This document shows, piece by piece, positions 16,148 to 28,170 of a DNA stretch of 64,000 nt; positions within the stretch are counted from its first letter, which is position 1, and each line of letters opens with the position of its first letter. The DNA is from Pseudoalteromonas marina (lineage in GTDB: Bacteria; Pseudomonadota; Gammaproteobacteria; Enterobacterales; Alteromonadaceae). The stretch covers positions 62,001-126,000 of the forward strand of contig NZ_AHCB03000006.1 in assembly GCF_000238335.3 (NCBI RefSeq). The letters run 5' to 3'. The notes beneath the pieces are model-generated. The model worked only from the letters and a program-made list of their open reading frames with translations. It had not been told where the DNA came from and did not search any database. The translations under genes and the position numbers were made by a program.

Positions 16148-16660
16148 TTACTTTTGTGCTTTTTTGCTTAAGTTTTCAATTAAGTCTTGTGCGCTATAGC
16201 TATTGTCTCTGGGTTTAATGCCTTTGCCCATTTTAATATCAATCAGGGTGTGCACTTCTTTACGTTTATCATGGTTGCTTACCTGTACGCCTACGCTGCT
16301 TGTTGGGCGTGCGCGTGTTTCGCAGGTTAATAAACCGCAGCTTCGCTCATATTGCTGGCTATGTGATGCACTAATAGATGACGCGGGCGCTTGCGATTTA
16401 GACTCAACAAAGGTTTCTTTATTCGTTACAACAAACCAGTCGTAGCCTTGCGCTTGGGTAAGCTCAGCCGCGCGTAACAATGCATAGTCACCGGCATCTG
16501 CTACGTTGTTTGACACACTTTTAAACTCTACTCGGTATTGATCGTCGCTAATTTTTTGCTCGCTGTAACCTTGTGAGCCATTATTCGCGGCGCGGTAATC
16601 AGGTTTAGATGCGCAACCCGCCATAAGTAAAATACTGATAATTAAAATAGATGTTTTCAT
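16148..16660 (-). CDS. CC0125/CC1285-type lipoprotein
   Basis: 170 residues with lipobox LLMAGC at 11-16. The core YRVEFKSVSNNVADAGDYALLRAAELTQAQGYDWFVV is the family signature: a small domain found in many proteobacterial lipoproteins of unknown function. It is the third gene of the ECF sigma operon, 25 nt after the anti-sigma gene, and so probably under the same control. Confidence 0.8.
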   Translation of the reverse strand: MKTSILIISILLMAGCASKPDYRAANNGSQGYSEQKISDDQYRVEFKSVSNNVADAGDYALLRAAELTQAQGYDWFVVTNKETFVESKSQAPASSISASHSQQYERSCGLLTCETRARPTSSVGVQVSNHDKRKEVHTLIDIKMGKGIKPRDNSYSAQDLIENLSKKAQK

Positions 16661-16685
16661 AATTCACCTCGTTTTATACACATTA

Positions 16686-17426
16686 TTATTTGTTTAACTG
16701 CCACTTTGCGCTAATTGCTTGCTGCTCTTGCGCTCTATCTAGTGGTGCGCCGCTGATCATGCTGTCTATAACAGCATCTAACTCACTGTTATTAGACGCC
16801 GTTTGATATTGCGCGCCATTATTACTTTGCTGCGTAGCTGTTTGCGCTTTAATTTGCCAACCGCCTTGCGTTTTACATGCAATACTTGTTTGCGTTGTGT
16901 TGTTTGAACTTAGTGCATACTGCCTACAAAGCTCACCTTGCTGATTTTTAAAACTAAGCTGCGCGCTAAATACTGAGCCATCACTTTGCTCATACTCTCC
17001 ACTACTTAGCTGTGTATTAAGGGCTGAGGCTATGCTACTGGCTACTAAATTTTGCGACTCATTGGGTTGTAAATAACTAGTCATTGCAATACCAAATACC
17101 ACGGCAACACTTGCAGCTATTGCTAAGCTTTTATTAGCCGAGTGCTTAGCCTTTTGCCAAGGCGTTAACGTTACTACATTGCTATTTAACATTTTTTTTG
17201 TCGTTGCTGTATCAAGCTTTGCAACCGTTTTAGCTAATGAGTCACTAAGGGGGGCGTCATCAATACTTGTTGCGTTCTCTTTTACTCGCATGTCTACTTC
17301 GCTTAGCTCTGCAAGTCGCATTACTAGTTCATCATCCGTTTCAAGGGCTTTACGCACTTGTTCCATTTCGTGCTCGCTTAGCTCTGAGTCTAAAAAGGCG
17401 CTAAGTGTTTCGTCGTTAATGTTCAT
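16686..17426 (-). CDS. Membrane anti-sigma factor (RseA-like)
   Basis: 246 residues. N-terminal cytoplasmic domain LSAFLDSELSEHEMEQVRKAL (about 8-28) is a typical sigma-binding anti-sigma start; one membrane helix at about 100-119; a periplasmic domain with two cysteines follows. No zinc-binding HxxxCxxC motif, so it is closer to RseA-type than ZAS-type. Its ATG overlaps the sigma stop by 4 nt, the usual sigma/anti-sigma coupling. Release of sigma by regulated proteolysis is the family expectation, not shown here. Confidence 0.85.
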   Translation of the reverse strand: MNINDETLSAFLDSELSEHEMEQVRKALETDDELVMRLAELSEVDMRVKENATSIDDAPLSDSLAKTVAKLDTATTKKMLNSNVVTLTPWQKAKHSANKSLAIAASVAVVFGIAMTSYLQPNESQNLVASSIASALNTQLSSGEYEQSDGSVFSAQLSFKNQQGELCRQYALSSNNTTQTSIACKTQGGWQIKAQTATQQSNNGAQYQTASNNSELDAVIDSMISGAPLDRAQEQQAISAKWQLNK

Positions 17427-17914
17427 ACTTGCTCCTTTTTAAAGTCGGGTTTTATTAAATTATAAAGTGTACAGCGTGCACGCGATAATTTACTCATTAC
17501 ACTGCCTATAGGTATATCGAGTGTATGTGCTACGTCTTTATAGGCCATGCCCTGCACTGCCACCAGCGATACAATGGCGCGTTGCTCTTCGGGTAATTGC
17601 CCAAGTGCTGTATTTACATTTTTAAGCATTTGTTTGTTTTCGAGTGTTTGGTGCTCATTACTTGTAATTGGCTCTGGTAATATATCGGCCTGGGCCGTAT
17701 TTTGCCTTACCTTGCGTGAGCGGTATTCGTCTATCCACACATTGCGGCAAATTTTAAACGCCCATTTAGCAGGCTCAACGTCATCCGGAATGCCTTTTAC
17801 TAATAGTTTTTCAATTGTTATTTGCACTACATCGTCTGCATCTGCTTTACTACCCGTTAGCGAATAGGCAAAACGCCTAAGCATGGGCAATAAGGTTTTT
17901 AATGTTTCGTTCAT
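17423..17914 (-). CDS. ECF RNA polymerase sigma factor
   Basis: 163 residues. Region 2 contains DADDVVQITIEKLL and FKICRNVWIDEYR; region 4 contains LPEEQRAIVSLVAVQGMAYKDVAHTLDIPIGSVMSKLSRAR, the helix-turn-helix that reads -35 boxes. It heads a three-gene operon with its anti-sigma and a lipoprotein, and an ECF-type promoter 24 nt upstream is nearly identical to one before the secreted-protein operon at 21282, implying autoregulation and a small regulon. Confidence 0.92.
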   Translation of the reverse strand: MNETLKTLLPMLRRFAYSLTGSKADADDVVQITIEKLLVKGIPDDVEPAKWAFKICRNVWIDEYRSRKVRQNTAQADILPEPITSNEHQTLENKQMLKNVNTALGQLPEEQRAIVSLVAVQGMAYKDVAHTLDIPIGSVMSKLSRARCTLYNLIKPDFKKEQV

Positions 17915-17937
17915 TGATTTTTACCCCTTTTATAAAG

Positions 17938-17964
17938 AAGACGATTCAAAAAAACATTTATTCC
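17938..17964 (-). promoter_or_regulatory. ECF-type promoter of the sigma operon
   Basis: Minus strand GGAATA, 15-nt spacer, CGTCTT, then CTTTAT. The same boxes and the same 12 nt CGTCTTCTTTAT occur at 21312-21345. GGAAT/CGTC is the general form of ECF promoters. Confidence 0.75.
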
Positions 17965-18054
17965 CAAATAATCAAAATAATTTGAATAATGAAATATTTT
18001 TATGTGTTAAACGTTAACTAATCAGCATGATAAATTTAATAAAAGTAACCCACT

Positions 18055-19401
18055 ATGAACATGAAAAAAGTCCGCGTTAAACACATAATAGCCACTTCGC
18101 TTTGCATATTTAGCGCAACGAGTTCTGCCAATATAGTCAAGGTCGATCAAGTGCTTGGGCAGTTAAACCCAATAGAGCAGCGTATTGAGCAAACTATAGA
18201 GCGCGCACAACGCCTGCCGCTTCAGGTGCCTGTACCACAAGTGTCGATTGATGAACTAAAAGCGCAAATTAGTGAGCCAATTAGCCGTTTACCTAATGTG
18301 CTTAACATTAATATAAATAGTCAAAACACCGCATTTGTTGAAGTAGAGCTAGAAAACGGCTTTAGAGCAATAGAGCGCCAATGGTTATTAATGGCAAATA
18401 GCCAACAACTTAATACCCTACAGCATCAAAATGTGACTATTGTATCGGTAAAAAATTACAACGCACTTAACATGAGCTTAGTGCGCTTTAACGTGCCCCA
18501 AGGTGTTAATTCTAAAAGTGAGTTATTAAAAGCGCTTAACTTAGATGAGTCTGCAATACTTGACCGAAACCACATATACCAAGCGCAAACAGGCGAGCCT
18601 ACTGCAAAAGTAACACCAAATAACTCTATTGCCCCTTACTGCACACAAAGCGTAAAAATTGGCATGATCGACAGCGCCATTAATACCAAACACAGTGCTT
18701 TTAAAGGCGCAAATATCACTACGCAAAGCTTTTTACCACAAGGGTTAAGCTCGCCAAATTTACACGGCACCGCCATTGCAGGGCTAATTACAGGTAAAGG
18801 CGCAAAACTTAGCCCGCTTTTAGGCAGTGCCAAGCTTTACAGTGCCGAGGTGTTTTATAGGCAATCTGAATATGCACAAGGGGCTACATTATTTGCCATA
18901 GTAGAAGCACTTAACTGGTTAGTAAGTAATAAAATACCCGTAATTAATATGAGCCTAACAGGGCCAAATAACGCAGTTTTAGAAGCAAGTATTACTGCAG
19001 CAATAAAACAAAACATGTTGATTGTAGCTGCTGCAGGTAACCAAGGGCCGGCGTCGCAGCCGTTATACCCAGGTGCGTATAAAAGCGTGATAGCGGTAAG
19101 TGCTATTGATGCAAATAACCAAATTTATAGATGGTCAAATAAAGGTGATTACATAGACTTTGCAGCCCTTGGTGTAAATGTTGTTACAAGCCAAGGCAAT
19201 GGAAAATTTGGTAGGGAGTCGGGTACGTCAATGGCGGCGCCGCATGTAAGCGCAGCATTAAGTTGTTTATTGTTAAAGCATGGTAATAATAAAACCAAAG
19301 CACTTAACGAGCTTACATCGCTGGCCGTCGACTTAGGCGAGCAAGGCAAAGACACCACCTTTGGTTATGGTGCCATTTACCCACCTAAAAGTGCACTTTA
19401 A
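18055..19401 (+). CDS. Secreted subtilisin-like serine protease (S8)
   Basis: 448 residues. Signal peptide to about residue 25 (SATSSA). A prodomain-like helical region spans about 30-190. Catalytic triad: Asp206 in IGMIDSAIN, His237 in NLHGTAIAG, Ser392 in SGTSMAAPH, with oxyanion Asn329 in AAAGN. No C-terminal sorting or pre-peptidase domain, so it is likely periplasmic or secreted. It lies between the two arms of an ECF-sigma cassette, divergent from the sigma gene, and its last 17 nt overlap the barrel gene on the other strand. A second ATG at 18061 is an equal start candidate. Confidence 0.9.
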   Translation: MNMKKVRVKHIIATSLCIFSATSSANIVKVDQVLGQLNPIEQRIEQTIERAQRLPLQVPVPQVSIDELKAQISEPISRLPNVLNININSQNTAFVEVELENGFRAIERQWLLMANSQQLNTLQHQNVTIVSVKNYNALNMSLVRFNVPQGVNSKSELLKALNLDESAILDRNHIYQAQTGEPTAKVTPNNSIAPYCTQSVKIGMIDSAINTKHSAFKGANITTQSFLPQGLSSPNLHGTAIAGLITGKGAKLSPLLGSAKLYSAEVFYRQSEYAQGATLFAIVEALNWLVSNKIPVINMSLTGPNNAVLEASITAAIKQNMLIVAAAGNQGPASQPLYPGAYKSVIAVSAIDANNQIYRWSNKGDYIDFAALGVNVVTSQGNGKFGRESGTSMAAPHVSAALSCLLLKHGNNKTKALNELTSLAVDLGEQGKDTTFGYGAIYPPKSAL

Positions 19402-20338
19402 CTGACGCAGATAAAACCGATCGCGTATAGGTATTGCTACTAAGCTTTGATTGATAATCGCCATATTCAGCCTCGGCTATGAGTGTTACGTGCTCAAATA
19501 AAGCTAGGTTATAAAACGCATTAACGATATTTCGGTGCTCATCTCGTGACGGTATTTGCTCAAAAAAATCATCCGTTGTTTGCTCATCGTAATCTTTATT
19601 TTGATAACGCCAGCCTGCGCCCACTTTATTCGCTACATTAAAGGCCGTAAATTTGTGCGTAACTTTAGTAGTAAAACCGTAGCCGTTAAAGTCGTATTGG
19701 TTGTCGTCGGCGTTTTCTTTATCGGCACTTAGCGCTGCCATTAGCATGGTTTGGCCATTATTTATAAAATGATAAAGCGCTACATCGCCACCTACGCCGT
19801 CGGCATTACGTGCTTTTGCAGTAGCAAAACGTTTAGCTTTGGTTTTTACACTCATACGCAAGTACGTATGCGGGTTTAAAAAATGGCCATAGTAGGCGCT
19901 GGCTTGATTAAAATGTAAAAATGGTTCGCCATCTACATTTGCTTTTGCACCATCGTAACGAACCCCTACCTCATGGCTATTAAAGCTATAGCTGCCATCT
20001 AAACCATATTGATGTAGGTCTAAATCGTATTGATCAAACTCATCGTAGTCTTGTTGTTCAAACTTATAGCTTGAGGTTAATTTAGCGCTTTTGGTTACTT
20101 GCCATTTAGCATTAACACCGGCTGCGGTTTTGATGCCGCTGTCGCTTTGCGACGAAATATCGTCAAGCTCCTGAACAGAGAGCGCCGAGTTACTTAATAC
20201 CCCAACTTCAGCATCTGCATTTAGCTCAAAGCTACTTTTAAAGGGCTTATTTTGCTCAGCTGTTTTAATGTGGTTAGTTTGTGCAAGCACCGCTTGAGCA
20301 CTAAAAACACACAATGTGGCGGTTATAACTGCTTTCAT
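19385..20338 (-). CDS. Outer-membrane beta-barrel protein of unknown function
   Basis: 317 residues from ATG 20338, chosen because TTGGAGAATAAAT gives a good ribosome site; an upstream in-frame ATG at 20392 lacks one. Signal peptide MKAVITATLCVFSAQAVLA. The mature protein alternates aromatic/polar strands (LTSSYKFEQQDYDEFDQYDL, FTTKVTHKFTAFNVANK) and ends with SASVKVHF, whose terminal Phe is the barrel-assembly signal. The strand wording is reminiscent of surface-lipoprotein assembly modifier (Slam-type) barrels, but I cannot place it. It follows the secreted protein gene by 62 nt and shares its promoter. Confidence 0.75.
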   Translation of the reverse strand: MKAVITATLCVFSAQAVLAQTNHIKTAEQNKPFKSSFELNADAEVGVLSNSALSVQELDDISSQSDSGIKTAAGVNAKWQVTKSAKLTSSYKFEQQDYDEFDQYDLDLHQYGLDGSYSFNSHEVGVRYDGAKANVDGEPFLHFNQASAYYGHFLNPHTYLRMSVKTKAKRFATAKARNADGVGGDVALYHFINNGQTMLMAALSADKENADDNQYDFNGYGFTTKVTHKFTAFNVANKVGAGWRYQNKDYDEQTTDDFFEQIPSRDEHRNIVNAFYNLALFEHVTLIAEAEYGDYQSKLSSNTYTRSVLSASVKVHF

Positions 20339-20400
20339 ATTTATTCTCCAACAGGCCGAATAGGTTTCCCCATTCGGCATTTGTGCAAGCACTTGGCGTA

Positions 20401-21282
20401 TTAAAGGCCTAGGTCTAAATCGTTAGTAATGTTGGTTACTACTTCACTTGCGGTGCTGAGTGCTACATCGTTACTAACTTGATCAGTAACCGCTGCACTC
20501 ACCTGCCCGCTAACACTTTGTTGTACTGTGCTTTGTAAACTACTAACCGTACTGTCTTGCACACTGGCAATTAAAGATTGCTGAACATTGCTTACTACTT
20601 CATTACTGGTATTAATTGCATCACCCATTTGCAGTGCAGAACTCACTGAGTTTGCAGCCGTATTAGTAATTGCTAATTGGTTTGTAAGCTCACCCGCATT
20701 AAGCGTATTATTTGCATCAGCTTGTGTAACTGAATCGGTTGCGCTGCCCACATTTGAAAGTAAAGAGGTATCGGCTGGTGTATCGGTAGTATCTGGCTGA
20801 GCGCCTTGCTCAGAGGTAACAGAAAGTAATGACGACTGGCTCACAGCGGTTGTTAAATTACTCGCCGATGAGGTTAACTGCGCTGTTGCATCAAGCGCTG
20901 TATTGGCTGTGGAATTGGCTGTGGCATTTAAAGACGAGGCCGATGCATTTAATGCATTATTTAAAGATCCGCTTGCAGATGCAACTAATGTATTTGCAGG
21001 CTCTGCGGCCTCACTGCTTTCTTGCGCTGGAGTTTGCGTGTTATTCACCGTTGAATCTGTGTTTTGCGAATCATCAGCCGTTACTTGTGTATCGTTAGAT
21101 ACGTCTGACTCGTTGCTACCACTGGCTGTTAAGCCATTTTGTGAAAGCGCAATAGATGTAGATGTTTGTTGCTGCGCCGACGTTGACTGAGATAGTTCAA
21201 TATCAGCGGCGTGCACTGCACCTGTAAAAGTACACACACCGCTTAACATCATTACGCTTACAATTTTATTTAATTTAGTCAT
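20401..21282 (-). CDS. Secreted low-complexity Ser/Thr/Asn/Ala-rich protein
   Basis: 293 residues, signal peptide ending at VHAA. The mature chain is nearly all S, T, N, A, Q, D, V and L with frequent amphipathic stretches (ASSLNATANSTANTALDA, QQSLIASVQDSTVSSLQS) and no cysteine, so it looks like an extended surface fibre or matrix-type protein. No fixed-period repeat. A match to any named family is not evident. It is the first gene behind the second ECF promoter and is followed by the barrel protein, which may secrete or anchor it (inference). Confidence 0.7.
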   Translation of the reverse strand: MTKLNKIVSVMMLSGVCTFTGAVHAADIELSQSTSAQQQTSTSIALSQNGLTASGSNESDVSNDTQVTADDSQNTDSTVNNTQTPAQESSEAAEPANTLVASASGSLNNALNASASSLNATANSTANTALDATAQLTSSASNLTTAVSQSSLLSVTSEQGAQPDTTDTPADTSLLSNVGSATDSVTQADANNTLNAGELTNQLAITNTAANSVSSALQMGDAINTSNEVVSNVQQSLIASVQDSTVSSLQSTVQQSVSGQVSAAVTDQVSNDVALSTASEVVTNITNDLDLGL

Positions 21283-21317
21283 TGTTTTGTCCTCTAGTTT
21301 GTCGGATTGACATAAAG

Positions 21318-21345
21318 AAGACGATTTACAAAAACACTTTATTCC
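21318..21345 (-). promoter_or_regulatory. ECF-type promoter of the secreted-protein/barrel operon
   Basis: Minus strand GGAATA, 16-nt spacer, CGTCTT, then CTTTAT, 36 nt before the ATG at 21282. Near-copy of the promoter before the ECF sigma gene. Confidence 0.75.
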
Positions 21346-21417: not shown

Positions 21418-23616
21418 CTACTGCGTTAGCGTTTCACTTTTTTGTATCAGCAATAACAGCTCAGCAGTGGCAGTTGCATCAGCCAATGCGCGGTGATGGC
21501 TGGGTAAGTTTAAATTAAAATGCGCGCTAAGGTTACCAAGCGAATACGACTTTAACCCTTTAAAAGCTCTGCGCGATTCAACCACGGTGCACATTTTTGG
21601 CATTTTAAAAAAGTGCCCTGCAATCTCACATTCTTTTTTAATAAAACCGTAATCAAAGTTCACGTTATGGGCTACAAAAATACTGCCTGCAAGTTTATCT
21701 AGTAGTGGCTGTGCTATATCGGCAAATACAGGCGCGTTGTACACCATGCCATCGCTTATGCCGGTCAATTTAGTAATAAAGCTTGGGATATGGCGCTGCG
21801 GATTAATAAGTGTCGTCCAGGTATCAATTACTTTACCGTGCTGTACTTTAACTATGCCAATTTCGGTAATGCGGTTACCACCTTTTAAGCTGCCCGTGGT
21901 TTCTATATCAACCACGCTGTAAATACGGCTAGGGTCTACAAACCACTTAACTGCAGCAATATGTACTGTAAAGCCCACATTTTTTAAATTATCAATGGTG
22001 GTTAATTGGTTGCGCCTTAGCTTATCGCCTGGGGCTTTTACCTCTTCAAAATGTACTTTGCCATTATTAATAACCATTAAGTCGGGGTAGCCGTCTTTTA
22101 GCTGTAAATAGTGTTTGCTCATAGCCGTTAAGTGCGCAATTAACGCTTCAAGCGGGCTGTTTAAAATAAGTGCCTCTAGTGGCTCTAATAAATTGCTGCG
22201 CCATCTAAATAAACCATTGGGCTGCTCAAAATACTGCGCGGCATGCTTACATACCAAATTAAGCAGCGCCTGATTAGTGCTACAGCTTTTTAAACGTGCG
22301 TCAATTTGCGTGCTTTGTGCTTCATAAAAATTACCAAGCTGTAAAACTTGCGGGTAAATATCAAATTCATTACACGGCGGGTATGGCGACTCAATAAATA
22401 ACTCGTGCCAAAATACTAAGCCAAACAAGCTTTGCCATAAGGTGTTTTCGGTATTAAATACCGTTAACCCTTTTGCACTGTAATGCTCATTTACGCCTTG
22501 TTCTACATCGCCTCGGTAAATTTCGTCAATTTCAAGCACACACTGGGTATCGGCCAGCATAGTACTTAAGCGCGAACGTGTTTGTTTATTAAACTTACGC
22601 ATTAAAAAGTCATCAGCAAAGTACAGTAAATCGTCGGTGAGCGGGTTTTCTATAATTTGCTCTAGCTGCGCTTTTACCCACGCTTTATTACCTAGGCGGT
22701 ATTGCTCTCTTATTTGAATCTCTTGTGCTTCGGCGTAATCGGTGCAGCCTTCAAGTAAGCTAAAAGCAAGTTCGCTATCGGTATTTTTAAGTTGTTTGTG
22801 CAGCCTAACCAGCAGTTTGTTTTTAATATCGTGCGCTTGTGCGCCATGCGACGGTTGCGCCAATACTAAATGCGCAAGCTCGGTGTAAGGGGTTTTGTCA
22901 TCAAAGGTTTCAGCTTTTGAATTACCGCCCGTTTTGCCGATATTTTTAAACGCTAAACGGTAACGATTTAAAACGTAATTAGATTGCGCCTCAGAGGGTG
23001 TATTAAAGCGCGACAAGCTCTCGCTGTGCCCTTCGCGGGTAGCGGTTAACCCTAAATCGCGCATAACAAAGCGGTTTTGATGGTTTACATCTCCACTACT
23101 TAAGCGCCCTGCAAATAAAAACTCAAAATACTCGTAATAATCTTCACGGTTATTTATCACATATTGGCTATATAAAGGGGCTAAATCATCTTCGCGATCA
23201 CTAAAAAATTGGCACGCAATACTAACCAACTCCCCTTTAGCTGCGCTTTTTTTAAAGCTTACTTGCTCACTGTAATTACTGAGTAAATCCACTAGCATGG
23301 GCTTGGTTAAATGCGCTATAAGCTGCTTGTAATGCTGTGCATTTGGCTCATATAAAATACCCGCTGTTTTTAGCGTATAAATAGCCTGATGCGGCGAAGT
23401 TATTTCTTCATAATTAAGCGATTGCGCCTGCACTAAATAAGGTTTGCGCGAATACACACGCGCCAACATGCATTGGCTTTGCTCATCTAGTTGGTTAATT
23501 TTACTAATAAATTGGCTGTGTTTGGGCTCAAGTAAATGCATACATTTACTTGTTACAAACTCAATAAGTTCTCTAAAATGCGCTAAATAGTATTTTGCTG
23601 GTAATTCTTTTTTCAT
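21418..23616 (-). CDS. FAN1-type VRR-NUC nuclease fused to DnaQ-like exonuclease
   Basis: 732 residues from ATG 23616 (an in-frame ATG at 23655 adds 13 residues without ribosome site). Residues about 1-560 resemble bacterial FAN1: ENTLWQSLFGLVFWHELF with the conserved Glu, then the VRR-NUC core GYPDLMVINNGKVHFEEVK with Pro-Asp at about 511 and Glu-Val-Lys at 525, followed by GDKLRRNQL. Residues about 565-732 are a DEDDh 3'-5' exonuclease: VVDIETTG, FVAHNVNFDYGFI, HRALADATAT. FAN1 resolves interstrand crosslinks and branched DNA. The usual bacterial FAN1 is about 560 residues, so the exonuclease is an added module. Single gene. Confidence 0.82.
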   Translation of the reverse strand: MKKELPAKYYLAHFRELIEFVTSKCMHLLEPKHSQFISKINQLDEQSQCMLARVYSRKPYLVQAQSLNYEEITSPHQAIYTLKTAGILYEPNAQHYKQLIAHLTKPMLVDLLSNYSEQVSFKKSAAKGELVSIACQFFSDREDDLAPLYSQYVINNREDYYEYFEFLFAGRLSSGDVNHQNRFVMRDLGLTATREGHSESLSRFNTPSEAQSNYVLNRYRLAFKNIGKTGGNSKAETFDDKTPYTELAHLVLAQPSHGAQAHDIKNKLLVRLHKQLKNTDSELAFSLLEGCTDYAEAQEIQIREQYRLGNKAWVKAQLEQIIENPLTDDLLYFADDFLMRKFNKQTRSRLSTMLADTQCVLEIDEIYRGDVEQGVNEHYSAKGLTVFNTENTLWQSLFGLVFWHELFIESPYPPCNEFDIYPQVLQLGNFYEAQSTQIDARLKSCSTNQALLNLVCKHAAQYFEQPNGLFRWRSNLLEPLEALILNSPLEALIAHLTAMSKHYLQLKDGYPDLMVINNGKVHFEEVKAPGDKLRRNQLTTIDNLKNVGFTVHIAAVKWFVDPSRIYSVVDIETTGSLKGGNRITEIGIVKVQHGKVIDTWTTLINPQRHIPSFITKLTGISDGMVYNAPVFADIAQPLLDKLAGSIFVAHNVNFDYGFIKKECEIAGHFFKMPKMCTVVESRRAFKGLKSYSLGNLSAHFNLNLPSHHRALADATATAELLLLIQKSETLTQ

Positions 23617-23744
23617 AACATCGCCACAACTGTATATAAAAACAGTATCTAGCATTTGTGCTTATTATTCAATCTTAAACTTGTAACTAAAACACGCTAT
23701 AGTGAGCGTATAATAGTAAATTTATTAAAAATAAAGGACTTACC

Positions 23745-26613: not shown

Positions 26614-28170
26614 CTAGATAGCACTAAAACCATGGTGCTTAATTTTATTAAGCAGCTCTCGGTTACTAGGTAAGTTAGTGACTGCTTGGTTTATCATGCT
26701 CTTATTTTTATCAAACTGACTTTTAGCGAAAACAGTGTCTTTAAGCATATAGGCAGTTGTGCTGTAATCACTTTTAAAGCCCATGCCGTATAAAACATAT
26801 TGATAACTGGCCGCTGGAAACACCTCATTATTACTTGTAAAGTCGTGATCAGCAGGAGCGCGGTATTGCCACAACTTCATTAGATCTAGTAAGCTTTGAG
26901 GAATCGTTTTTGGGTCTCTGTTATCACGCCAAAATGCGTTATCGTCACGGTTTGATAAAATATAATGCAGTTTTAAAAAGTCGATTATTTTTTCCCACCT
27001 ATAGGTAAACGTCTCGTTAAAGCGTTTGGCGGTAATATCCATAATATCGCGGGTCTGGGGGAGTTGTTCGCTTATCATTTGCGCTGACATTTCTACTAAT
27101 ACCAATGCAGAGGCTTCAAGCGGCTCTAAAAAACCAGCTGAAAGCCCAACCGCAACACAGTTGTTCTGCCAAAAGTGTGAGCGGTGGCCGCTTTTAATAG
27201 GGATTTTTCTAATTGTTAACGACTCTATTTTATCGCCTACATACGCATTGAGCTTTTCTCGTGCTTCAGCTTCGCTACTATATTTACTCGAATACACATA
27301 ACCCACACCACGGCGGTGCTGTAATCCTATATCCCATATCCAACCTGCTTCTTGCGCTGTTGAAATTGTGTGGGATGCAATACGCTCATCTTCATTCTCA
27401 TAAGGGACTTGCACTGCTAAGGCGGTATCAATGAATAGCACGTCATCGCACGGCTTAAAAGGAACCTTATAATGCTCACCTAATAACAATGAAGAAAAGC
27501 CGGTGCAATCAACAAATAAATCACCGCTAATTTCACCTTGTTGCTTTGTGATAACGCTTGCAATATCGCCATTATCAGCACTATTAACCTGTGTTACATC
27601 AGCCAAAATATGTTTAACGCCAAGCTGCTGCGTACAATGCTTTTGTAAAAAAACGGCAAATTTTGCCGAGTCTAAGTGGTAGGCATAATTAGCTATAGCA
27701 GCATATTCTGGGGTGTGAATTGTTTTAGGGGCAAGCCCTTGCTCACAAATAGCTTCTTGGTAACACACTGCATTTGAAAAAGACGTGGACTCAGCGGCAT
27801 TATTTAACCAATGCCCTGCCATATCTGTTTTTGAAAAGCCCTGTGGCAAAACTAATGGGTGGTAATAAAAATCATCATTGCTCCCATCCACCCACTTGGC
27901 GAATTTTGCACCTTGCTTAAAGCTTGCTTCACACTCGCGTATAAAATCAGTTTCGCTAATACCAAGTGCTATTAATGTACTGCGCATGGTAGGCCAAGTA
28001 CCTTCCCCAACACCTATAATTGGTACATTTGGAGACTCAACGAGAACAACATTAAGGCCATCCGGGGTATTACTTTTGTGGTGCGCCGCTAATCGTCCGG
28101 CTGTTAGCCAGCCCGCTATACCACCACCAACGACAACCACTGTTTTTATTTTTTTATTTTGCTGGTTCAT
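26614..28170 (-). CDS. Flavin-dependent tryptophan halogenase family protein
   Basis: 518 residues. FAD-binding GGGIAG at 15-20; catalytic lysine equivalent Lys85 in ECEASFKQGAKF; the GWxWxIP motif is present as GWIWDIG at 276-282 with Gly in place of Pro; catalytic Glu at about 352 in FLEPLEASA. Classic members halogenate tryptophan; those coded beside TonB receptors and SapC (for example BrvH) act on free indoles in vitro and prefer bromide. No flavin reductase gene is nearby. Seawater habitat makes bromination plausible, but the natural substrate is unknown. Confidence 0.88.
   Translation of the reverse strand: MNQQNKKIKTVVVVGGGIAGWLTAGRLAAHHKSNTPDGLNVVLVESPNVPIIGVGEGTWPTMRSTLIALGISETDFIRECEASFKQGAKFAKWVDGSNDDFYYHPLVLPQGFSKTDMAGHWLNNAAESTSFSNAVCYQEAICEQGLAPKTIHTPEYAAIANYAYHLDSAKFAVFLQKHCTQQLGVKHILADVTQVNSADNGDIASVITKQQGEISGDLFVDCTGFSSLLLGEHYKVPFKPCDDVLFIDTALAVQVPYENEDERIASHTISTAQEAGWIWDIGLQHRRGVGYVYSSKYSSEAEAREKLNAYVGDKIESLTIRKIPIKSGHRSHFWQNNCVAVGLSAGFLEPLEASALVLVEMSAQMISEQLPQTRDIMDITAKRFNETFTYRWEKIIDFLKLHYILSNRDDNAFWRDNRDPKTIPQSLLDLMKLWQYRAPADHDFTSNNEVFPAASYQYVLYGMGFKSDYSTTAYMLKDTVFAKSQFDKNKSMINQAVTNLPSNRELLNKIKHHGFSAI

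Follow-up and report, generated by a model that had tools for sequence, protein, structure and literature searches.

In a 64,000-nucleotide stretch of Pseudoalteromonas marina DNA, hereafter the window, two minus-strand promoter-like strings beginning with GGAATA are found, one before the operon of an ECF sigma factor and the other before an operon for an exported protein and an outer-membrane barrel. The original prediction had described this pair, and both sites were located where it had placed them. The question raised by the locus is whether the strings belong to a promoter code read by the sigma factor, and how many operons such a code would govern. As judged from sequence comparison, the locus would be a self-contained, ECF26-like sigma module with a shared promoter code, in which the stress-type sigma factor transcribes its own operon, the exported-protein/barrel operon and the operon of an S8 protease; the probability of this reading is estimated at about 0.84. 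The regulon appears to be real, conserved and local, and it probably comprises three operons.

Two minus-strand operons make up most of the locus (Table 1). The first consists of the sigma, anti-sigma and lipoprotein genes, of which the first two overlap by 4 nt, and the second of the exported-protein and barrel genes. The plus-strand S8 gene sits between them, convergent with the barrel gene. By eye, the anti-sigma factor has one membrane span and the S8 protease an export signal; two cysteines in the C-terminal part of the anti-sigma factor are invariant in an alignment of 19 sequences. No Pfam or NCBIfam family matched the exported protein at E<=0.1. For the barrel, the ATG at 20338 was taken as the start, rather than the GTG at 20392. 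Two other genes of the minus strand were recorded further along the window: one (21418-23655) encodes a 745-aa protein with FAN1-type HTH, VRR-NUC nuclease and RNase T exonuclease domains, and the other (26614-28170), by impression from its sequence, a flavin-dependent enzyme of the tryptophan-halogenase type.

Table 1. Genes and predicted promoters of the module (window coordinates).
Feature	Position	Strand	Basis
ECF sigma factor, 163 aa, regions 2 and 4	17423..17914	-	PF04542 8.6e-12, PF08281 1.7e-12
Anti-sigma factor, 246 aa	16686..17426	-	NF052375 6e-6, under that model's cut-off
CC0125/CC1285-family lipoprotein, gene 3 of sigma operon	16148..16660	-	NF047637, 143 bits vs cut-off 40
S8 (subtilase) serine protease, divergent from sigma	18055..19401	+	PF00082 4e-36
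Ser/Thr/Ala/Asn-rich exported protein, 293 aa	20401..21282	-	export signal by eye
14-stranded outer-membrane beta-barrel, 317 aa	19385..20338	-	AlphaFold model pLDDT 84.3, pTM 0.77
P1, ECF-type promoter of sigma operon	17938..17964	-	GGAATA-N15-CGTCTTCTTTAT, 24 nt before sigma start codon (17914)
P2, ECF-type promoter of exported-protein/barrel operon	21318..21345	-	GGAATA-N16-CGTCTTCTTTAT, 36 nt before start (21282)
P3, variant, possibly weak ECF-type promoter facing S8 gene	17991..18018	+	GAAAT-N16-CGTTAAC; p=0.023 alone in window

The -10 blocks of P1 and P2 are identical over 12 bases. In the window, the pattern GGAATAN{14,17}CGTCTT matched twice, against a mean of 0.02 in 100 shuffled sequences, none of which contained two matches. 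A genome-wide search had been proposed along with the original prediction. GGAATN{15,18}CGTCTT had 8 matches (3 for the reversed control), and GGAATAAN{14,15}CGTY had 11, about as frequent as its reversed control (10). When both loose patterns were pooled, 17 distinct sites were obtained, of which 14 were inside or overlapping mechanical ORFs with 100 or more codons. Only three were outside ORFs with an ORF start at most 250 nt downstream: P1, P2 and one site with an N18 spacer; the last precedes, by 27 nt, a 291-codon ORF for which no connection to the module could be seen. Because most genome matches are ORF-borne, the promoter string alone is not specific, and the specificity resides in its position and conservation. 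This distribution of sites also left a large regulon scattered over this genome unsupported.

Conservation was examined in 108 Pseudoalteromonas genomes. A relative of the sigma factor (E<=1e-25) was present in 15 and absent from 93. In 14 of the 15, namely the window genome and 13 others (sigma identity 69% or higher), tblastn placed all six genes in one block, with only a weak match to the exported protein in the four most divergent. A strict pattern, GGAATAN{13,18}CGTCTTCT, was present in 21 of the 108 genomes; it occupied both cassette places in all ten genomes with a sigma factor at least 79% identical, and in exactly those. None of the 93 sigma-less genomes had the P1/P2 pair, and 11 of them had one or two strict-pattern matches elsewhere. 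In one genome (G101) the boxes were kept, while the P2 spacer differed almost throughout and was one base shorter. Four more divergent Pseudoalteromonas had GGAATAAA-N13-CGTTA before both operons.

In the fifteenth genome (G014, sigma 45% identical) only sigma and anti-sigma were seen by tblastn. It has an 82-codon ORF at the S8 position, near a contig end, and was dropped as a member of the module. Its more distant sigma/anti-sigma pair (L067, 14626-15732) has GGAATAAA..CGTTA sites on either side and faces the 82-codon ORF.

Beyond the genus, in an order-wide sample of 394 genomes (E<=1e-10), the anti-sigma factor was found in 21 and the barrel in the same 21; the carriers belong to 9 of 114 genera and to three families. 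In the 19 of these 21 genomes that were new to the comparison, sigma and S8 matches were obtained in all 19 and the lipoprotein in 18. An Ala/Ser/Thr-rich ORF, recognised by composition (only two gave a BLAST match), preceded the barrel in 18 of the 19. At one locus (G197, L168, 2284-4833) the place of the exported protein is taken by an 849-residue protein of a different type; a site lies upstream of it and the same barrel follows. A distant barrel was seen in G514 (L182, 6020-9024, minus strand) beside an Ala/Thr/Asp-rich ORF and, by eye, a trypsin-like protease; there is no sigma and no S8 around it in that stretch.

A weight matrix was trained on 18 sigma promoters only. With it, every one of the 33 sigma loci, including the 18 used for training, showed a site before sigma. 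For the exported-protein operon, which was outside the training, sites were detected at p<=0.01 in 28 of 32 loci and at p<=0.05 in 31, the last locus (L160) reaching p=0.066; a second run on different shuffles raised these counts to 29 and 32, respectively. On the opposite strand of the same upstream regions, the corresponding control numbers were 0 and 1 of 32. A second control, a stretch within the barrel gene, gave 1 and 6 of 32, the latter possibly reflecting a single stretch shared among close relatives. One locus (L150) was omitted from this test because of its differing arrangement; a GGAATAAA..CGTTATC site was found there by pattern (L150:7514, minus strand). In G322 the barrel operon lies on a separate contig and has retained its upstream site (p=0.027).

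The code that emerges before both operons consists of a -35 box GGAATAAA and a -10 box CGTYWTC; GGAAT and CGT are separated by 16-17 nt. At both operons the sites are kept in nearly every lineage examined, while the spacers diverge. Of 24 lineages, 22 have the same fourth base of the -10 box (C or T) in both promoters (Fisher p=4e-5, uncorrected for relatedness). Counts of loci and genomes overstate the number of independent events, because related genomes are not independent. Chance repetition of the motif is rejected on the strength of its conservation, even though the string by itself is not rare. The joint switching of the sigma and exported-protein operons, as originally proposed, is well supported by the comparison, both in the sites (33/33 and 31/32 loci) and in the co-occurrence of the genes (the same 21 of 394 genomes).

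The extent of the regulon depends on the S8 gene. It had been stated that no third copy of the motif precedes this gene, which holds for the exact string and fails for the variant site P3. In most relatives a site of the form GGAATTTTTT-N-CGTY lies ahead of S8, usually back to back with the sigma promoter; the S8-facing variant can be written GGAATTTT ... CGTY in most relatives and GAAAT ... CGTTAAC in the window. Since a variant site is present, the regulon probably contains three operons and not two, so that the two-operon version was incomplete.

The main competing explanation is that only P1 and P2 are sigma-dependent, the S8 gene having a promoter of its own and its variant site being a relic. 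The window clade does have GAAAT in place of GGAAT at the -35 position, with p=0.023 alone, and in its nine loci the sigma and S8 sites are 27-28 bp apart, the back-to-back spacing (9-10 bp) having been lost. Moreover, the sigma-trained matrix reached p<=0.05 in only 17 of 32 S8 upstream regions. This low score is probably due to a -35 box of the type GGAATTTTTT rather than GGAATAAA, and to some S8 starts having been set too far inside the gene. A second matrix was built from 13 S8-facing sites outside Pseudoalteromonas. It added GAGAATTTT variants in L157, L161 and L162 (p=0.003), gave p=0.023 for the window and p=0.053 for L062, and found no S8-facing site in two of the 33 loci (L167 and L168); in L066 its best match was away from the site found by pattern. 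With this matrix, the opposite strand of the S8 upstream regions likewise gave p<=0.05 at many loci, and it is not a clean control since it holds the sigma promoter.

Against a relic, the pattern G[GAC]AAT-N15-17-CGTY matched facing S8 in 28 of 33 loci, and among the loci outside the window clade showing both sites, 16 of 17 were back to back, with 9-10 bp between the first bases of the S8-facing and sigma -35 boxes. The boxes of P3 are shared by the eight nearest relatives (L054-L061), and CGTTAAC with the N16 spacing is retained in the window and in the nine loci closest to it (L054-L062). In addition, RpoE6 of S. meliloti raises its own divergent protease (PMC6180224). An S8 promoter independent of the sigma factor is considered unlikely.

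Several ECF genes per genome are usual, and this counts for another explanation, in which the boxes are read by, or shared with, a different ECF sigma factor within a wider, cross-talking regulon. The precedent is in S. meliloti, where the ECF26 factors RpoE1 and RpoE4 cross-activate one another's targets (PMC6180224). Against it stand the missing P1/P2 pair in all 93 sigma-less genomes and the co-occurrence of anti-sigma and barrel in the same 21 of 394 genomes, which make this explanation quite improbable. That the shared box is a conserved operator of a regulator and not a sigma recognition site is highly improbable: the identical block does run beyond the -10 box (CTTTAT), and TATGTCA follows the -10 box of the exported-protein operon in many lineages, but the two-block shape, the 16-17 nt spacing, the closeness to start codons and the agreement with the mapped ECF26 consensus (PMC6180224) all speak for a promoter. 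As a separate observation, the block TATGTCAAT and its variants just after the -10 box of P2 (window 21304-21317, minus strand) recur in many lineages and would exceed the needs of the sigma factor.

Which sigma group would read the promoter code is suggested by comparison with ECF26, a group described as poorly characterised (PMC3511301). According to PMC6180224, its consensus promoter is GGAATA at -35 and GT at -10; in S. meliloti the ECF26 genes are followed by membrane anti-sigma factors with an N-terminal anti-sigma domain, a span and a periplasmic C-terminal domain; and a divergent serine protease next to rpoE6, SMa0142, represents an arrangement widely conserved in the group. All three traits recur here. 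P1 and P2 of the window and its relatives agree with the consensus, the S8 gene diverges from sigma, and the anti-sigma factor is encoded downstream, is a homologue of EcfR6 and has a membrane span by eye. Compared with RpoE6-EcfR6/SMa0142 on pSymA (L171), the sigma factor is 43%, the anti-sigma factor 29% (E 1e-18) and the S8 protease 31% identical. The same divergent sigma/anti-sigma/protease trio was found on Rhizobium and Agrobacterium plasmids (L169, L170). The module is best read as local, self-contained and ECF26-type, the class being assigned indirectly, from the 43% identity to RpoE6 and the shared traits.

The two systems also differ. Overexpression of RpoE6 raised 40 genes in S. meliloti, among them the anti-sigma gene and SMa0142, and was read by the authors as autoregulation. 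The start mapped for rpoE6 itself belongs to a promoter of another type than GGAATA (PMC6180224). On pSymA, GGAATA..CGTT sites lie before the protease and the anti-sigma gene, both mapped in PMC6180224, and the RpoE6-dependent anti-sigma site is within the end of rpoE6 rather than before it. Unlike in all loci of the present module, no GGAATA..CGTY site was seen before sigma in L169-L171, and tblastn gave no relatives of the exported protein or barrel in these three alphaproteobacterial stretches. On L169 and L170, GGAATA-N-CGTT sites precede anti-sigma, DUF6065 and glycerate kinase genes, which suggests a local ECF26 regulon there too. SigAb of Acinetobacter likewise has a small direct regulon with autoregulation and anti-sigma genes in its operon; it differs in being metal-responsive and in its targets, relA and a small RNA (PMC12153292; compared by description). 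ECF26 factors with a GGAATA -35 box, a membrane anti-sigma factor and a divergent serine protease are thus known already (PMC6180224). What is new is the partner operon, with its exported Ser/Thr/Ala-rich protein and 14-stranded, TPR-less barrel. No description of the module was found in the open-access papers searched, a set outside which most subscription papers fall.

The barrel itself is remotely like Slam in having 14 predicted strands and about 290 barrel residues (AlphaFold model). Profile-profile comparison with the barrel parts of Slam proteins, of which 12 of the 13 fetched were matched, gave an alignment of 269 columns at 97% probability (E 3e-11 for a one-profile comparison). PF04575 (DUF560) matched 3 of 21 barrel relatives and not the window protein itself. 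In contrast to all Slams of PMC5449769, which have an N-terminal TPR domain, the window barrel has none: it is 317 aa in total, its first strand is at residue 36 and no TPR match was obtained. Slam cargo is encoded next to its exporter and has a TbpB-like 8-stranded barrel; the candidate cargo here, the exported protein, had no match to known cargo families in Pfam or NCBIfam. An alignment of the barrel against sequences of solved structures gave a single match (E 0.5). In a separate comparison no Slam protein was among the 50 matches listed, which proves nothing. Membership of the barrel in Slam is not claimed, because the TPR domain is missing; from its sequence, it would be a TPR-less and remotely Slam/T11SS-like protein.

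A working scheme for the ECF26-like module would be as follows. The membrane anti-sigma factor may hold the sigma factor until some envelope signal arrives, and its breakdown would release sigma, which would then transcribe all three operons. Alongside the exported protein, the barrel and the protease, sigma would raise its own anti-sigma factor and thereby provide feedback. With less certainty, and speculatively, the barrel might export or display the Ser/Thr/Ala-rich protein, and the S8 protease might process that protein or feed back on the anti-sigma factor. An extension of this scheme, tentative and on balance doubtful, is a minimal sigma-controlled export machine: the TPR-less, Slam-like barrel would export a surface protein, and the co-induced S8 protease would mature or release this cargo and also act on the anti-sigma factor. 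If true, it would couple the state of the cell surface to gene expression.

In all, a pair of promoter-like strings becomes a testable regulon, probably of three operons, with a clear promoter code. Among the genomes sampled it spans three families of the order, and it is tied to a barrel family of no assigned function. ECF26 would gain a gammaproteobacterial version that has an effector operon dedicated to it, and the module offers a candidate set of cargo, exporter and protease for experiments.
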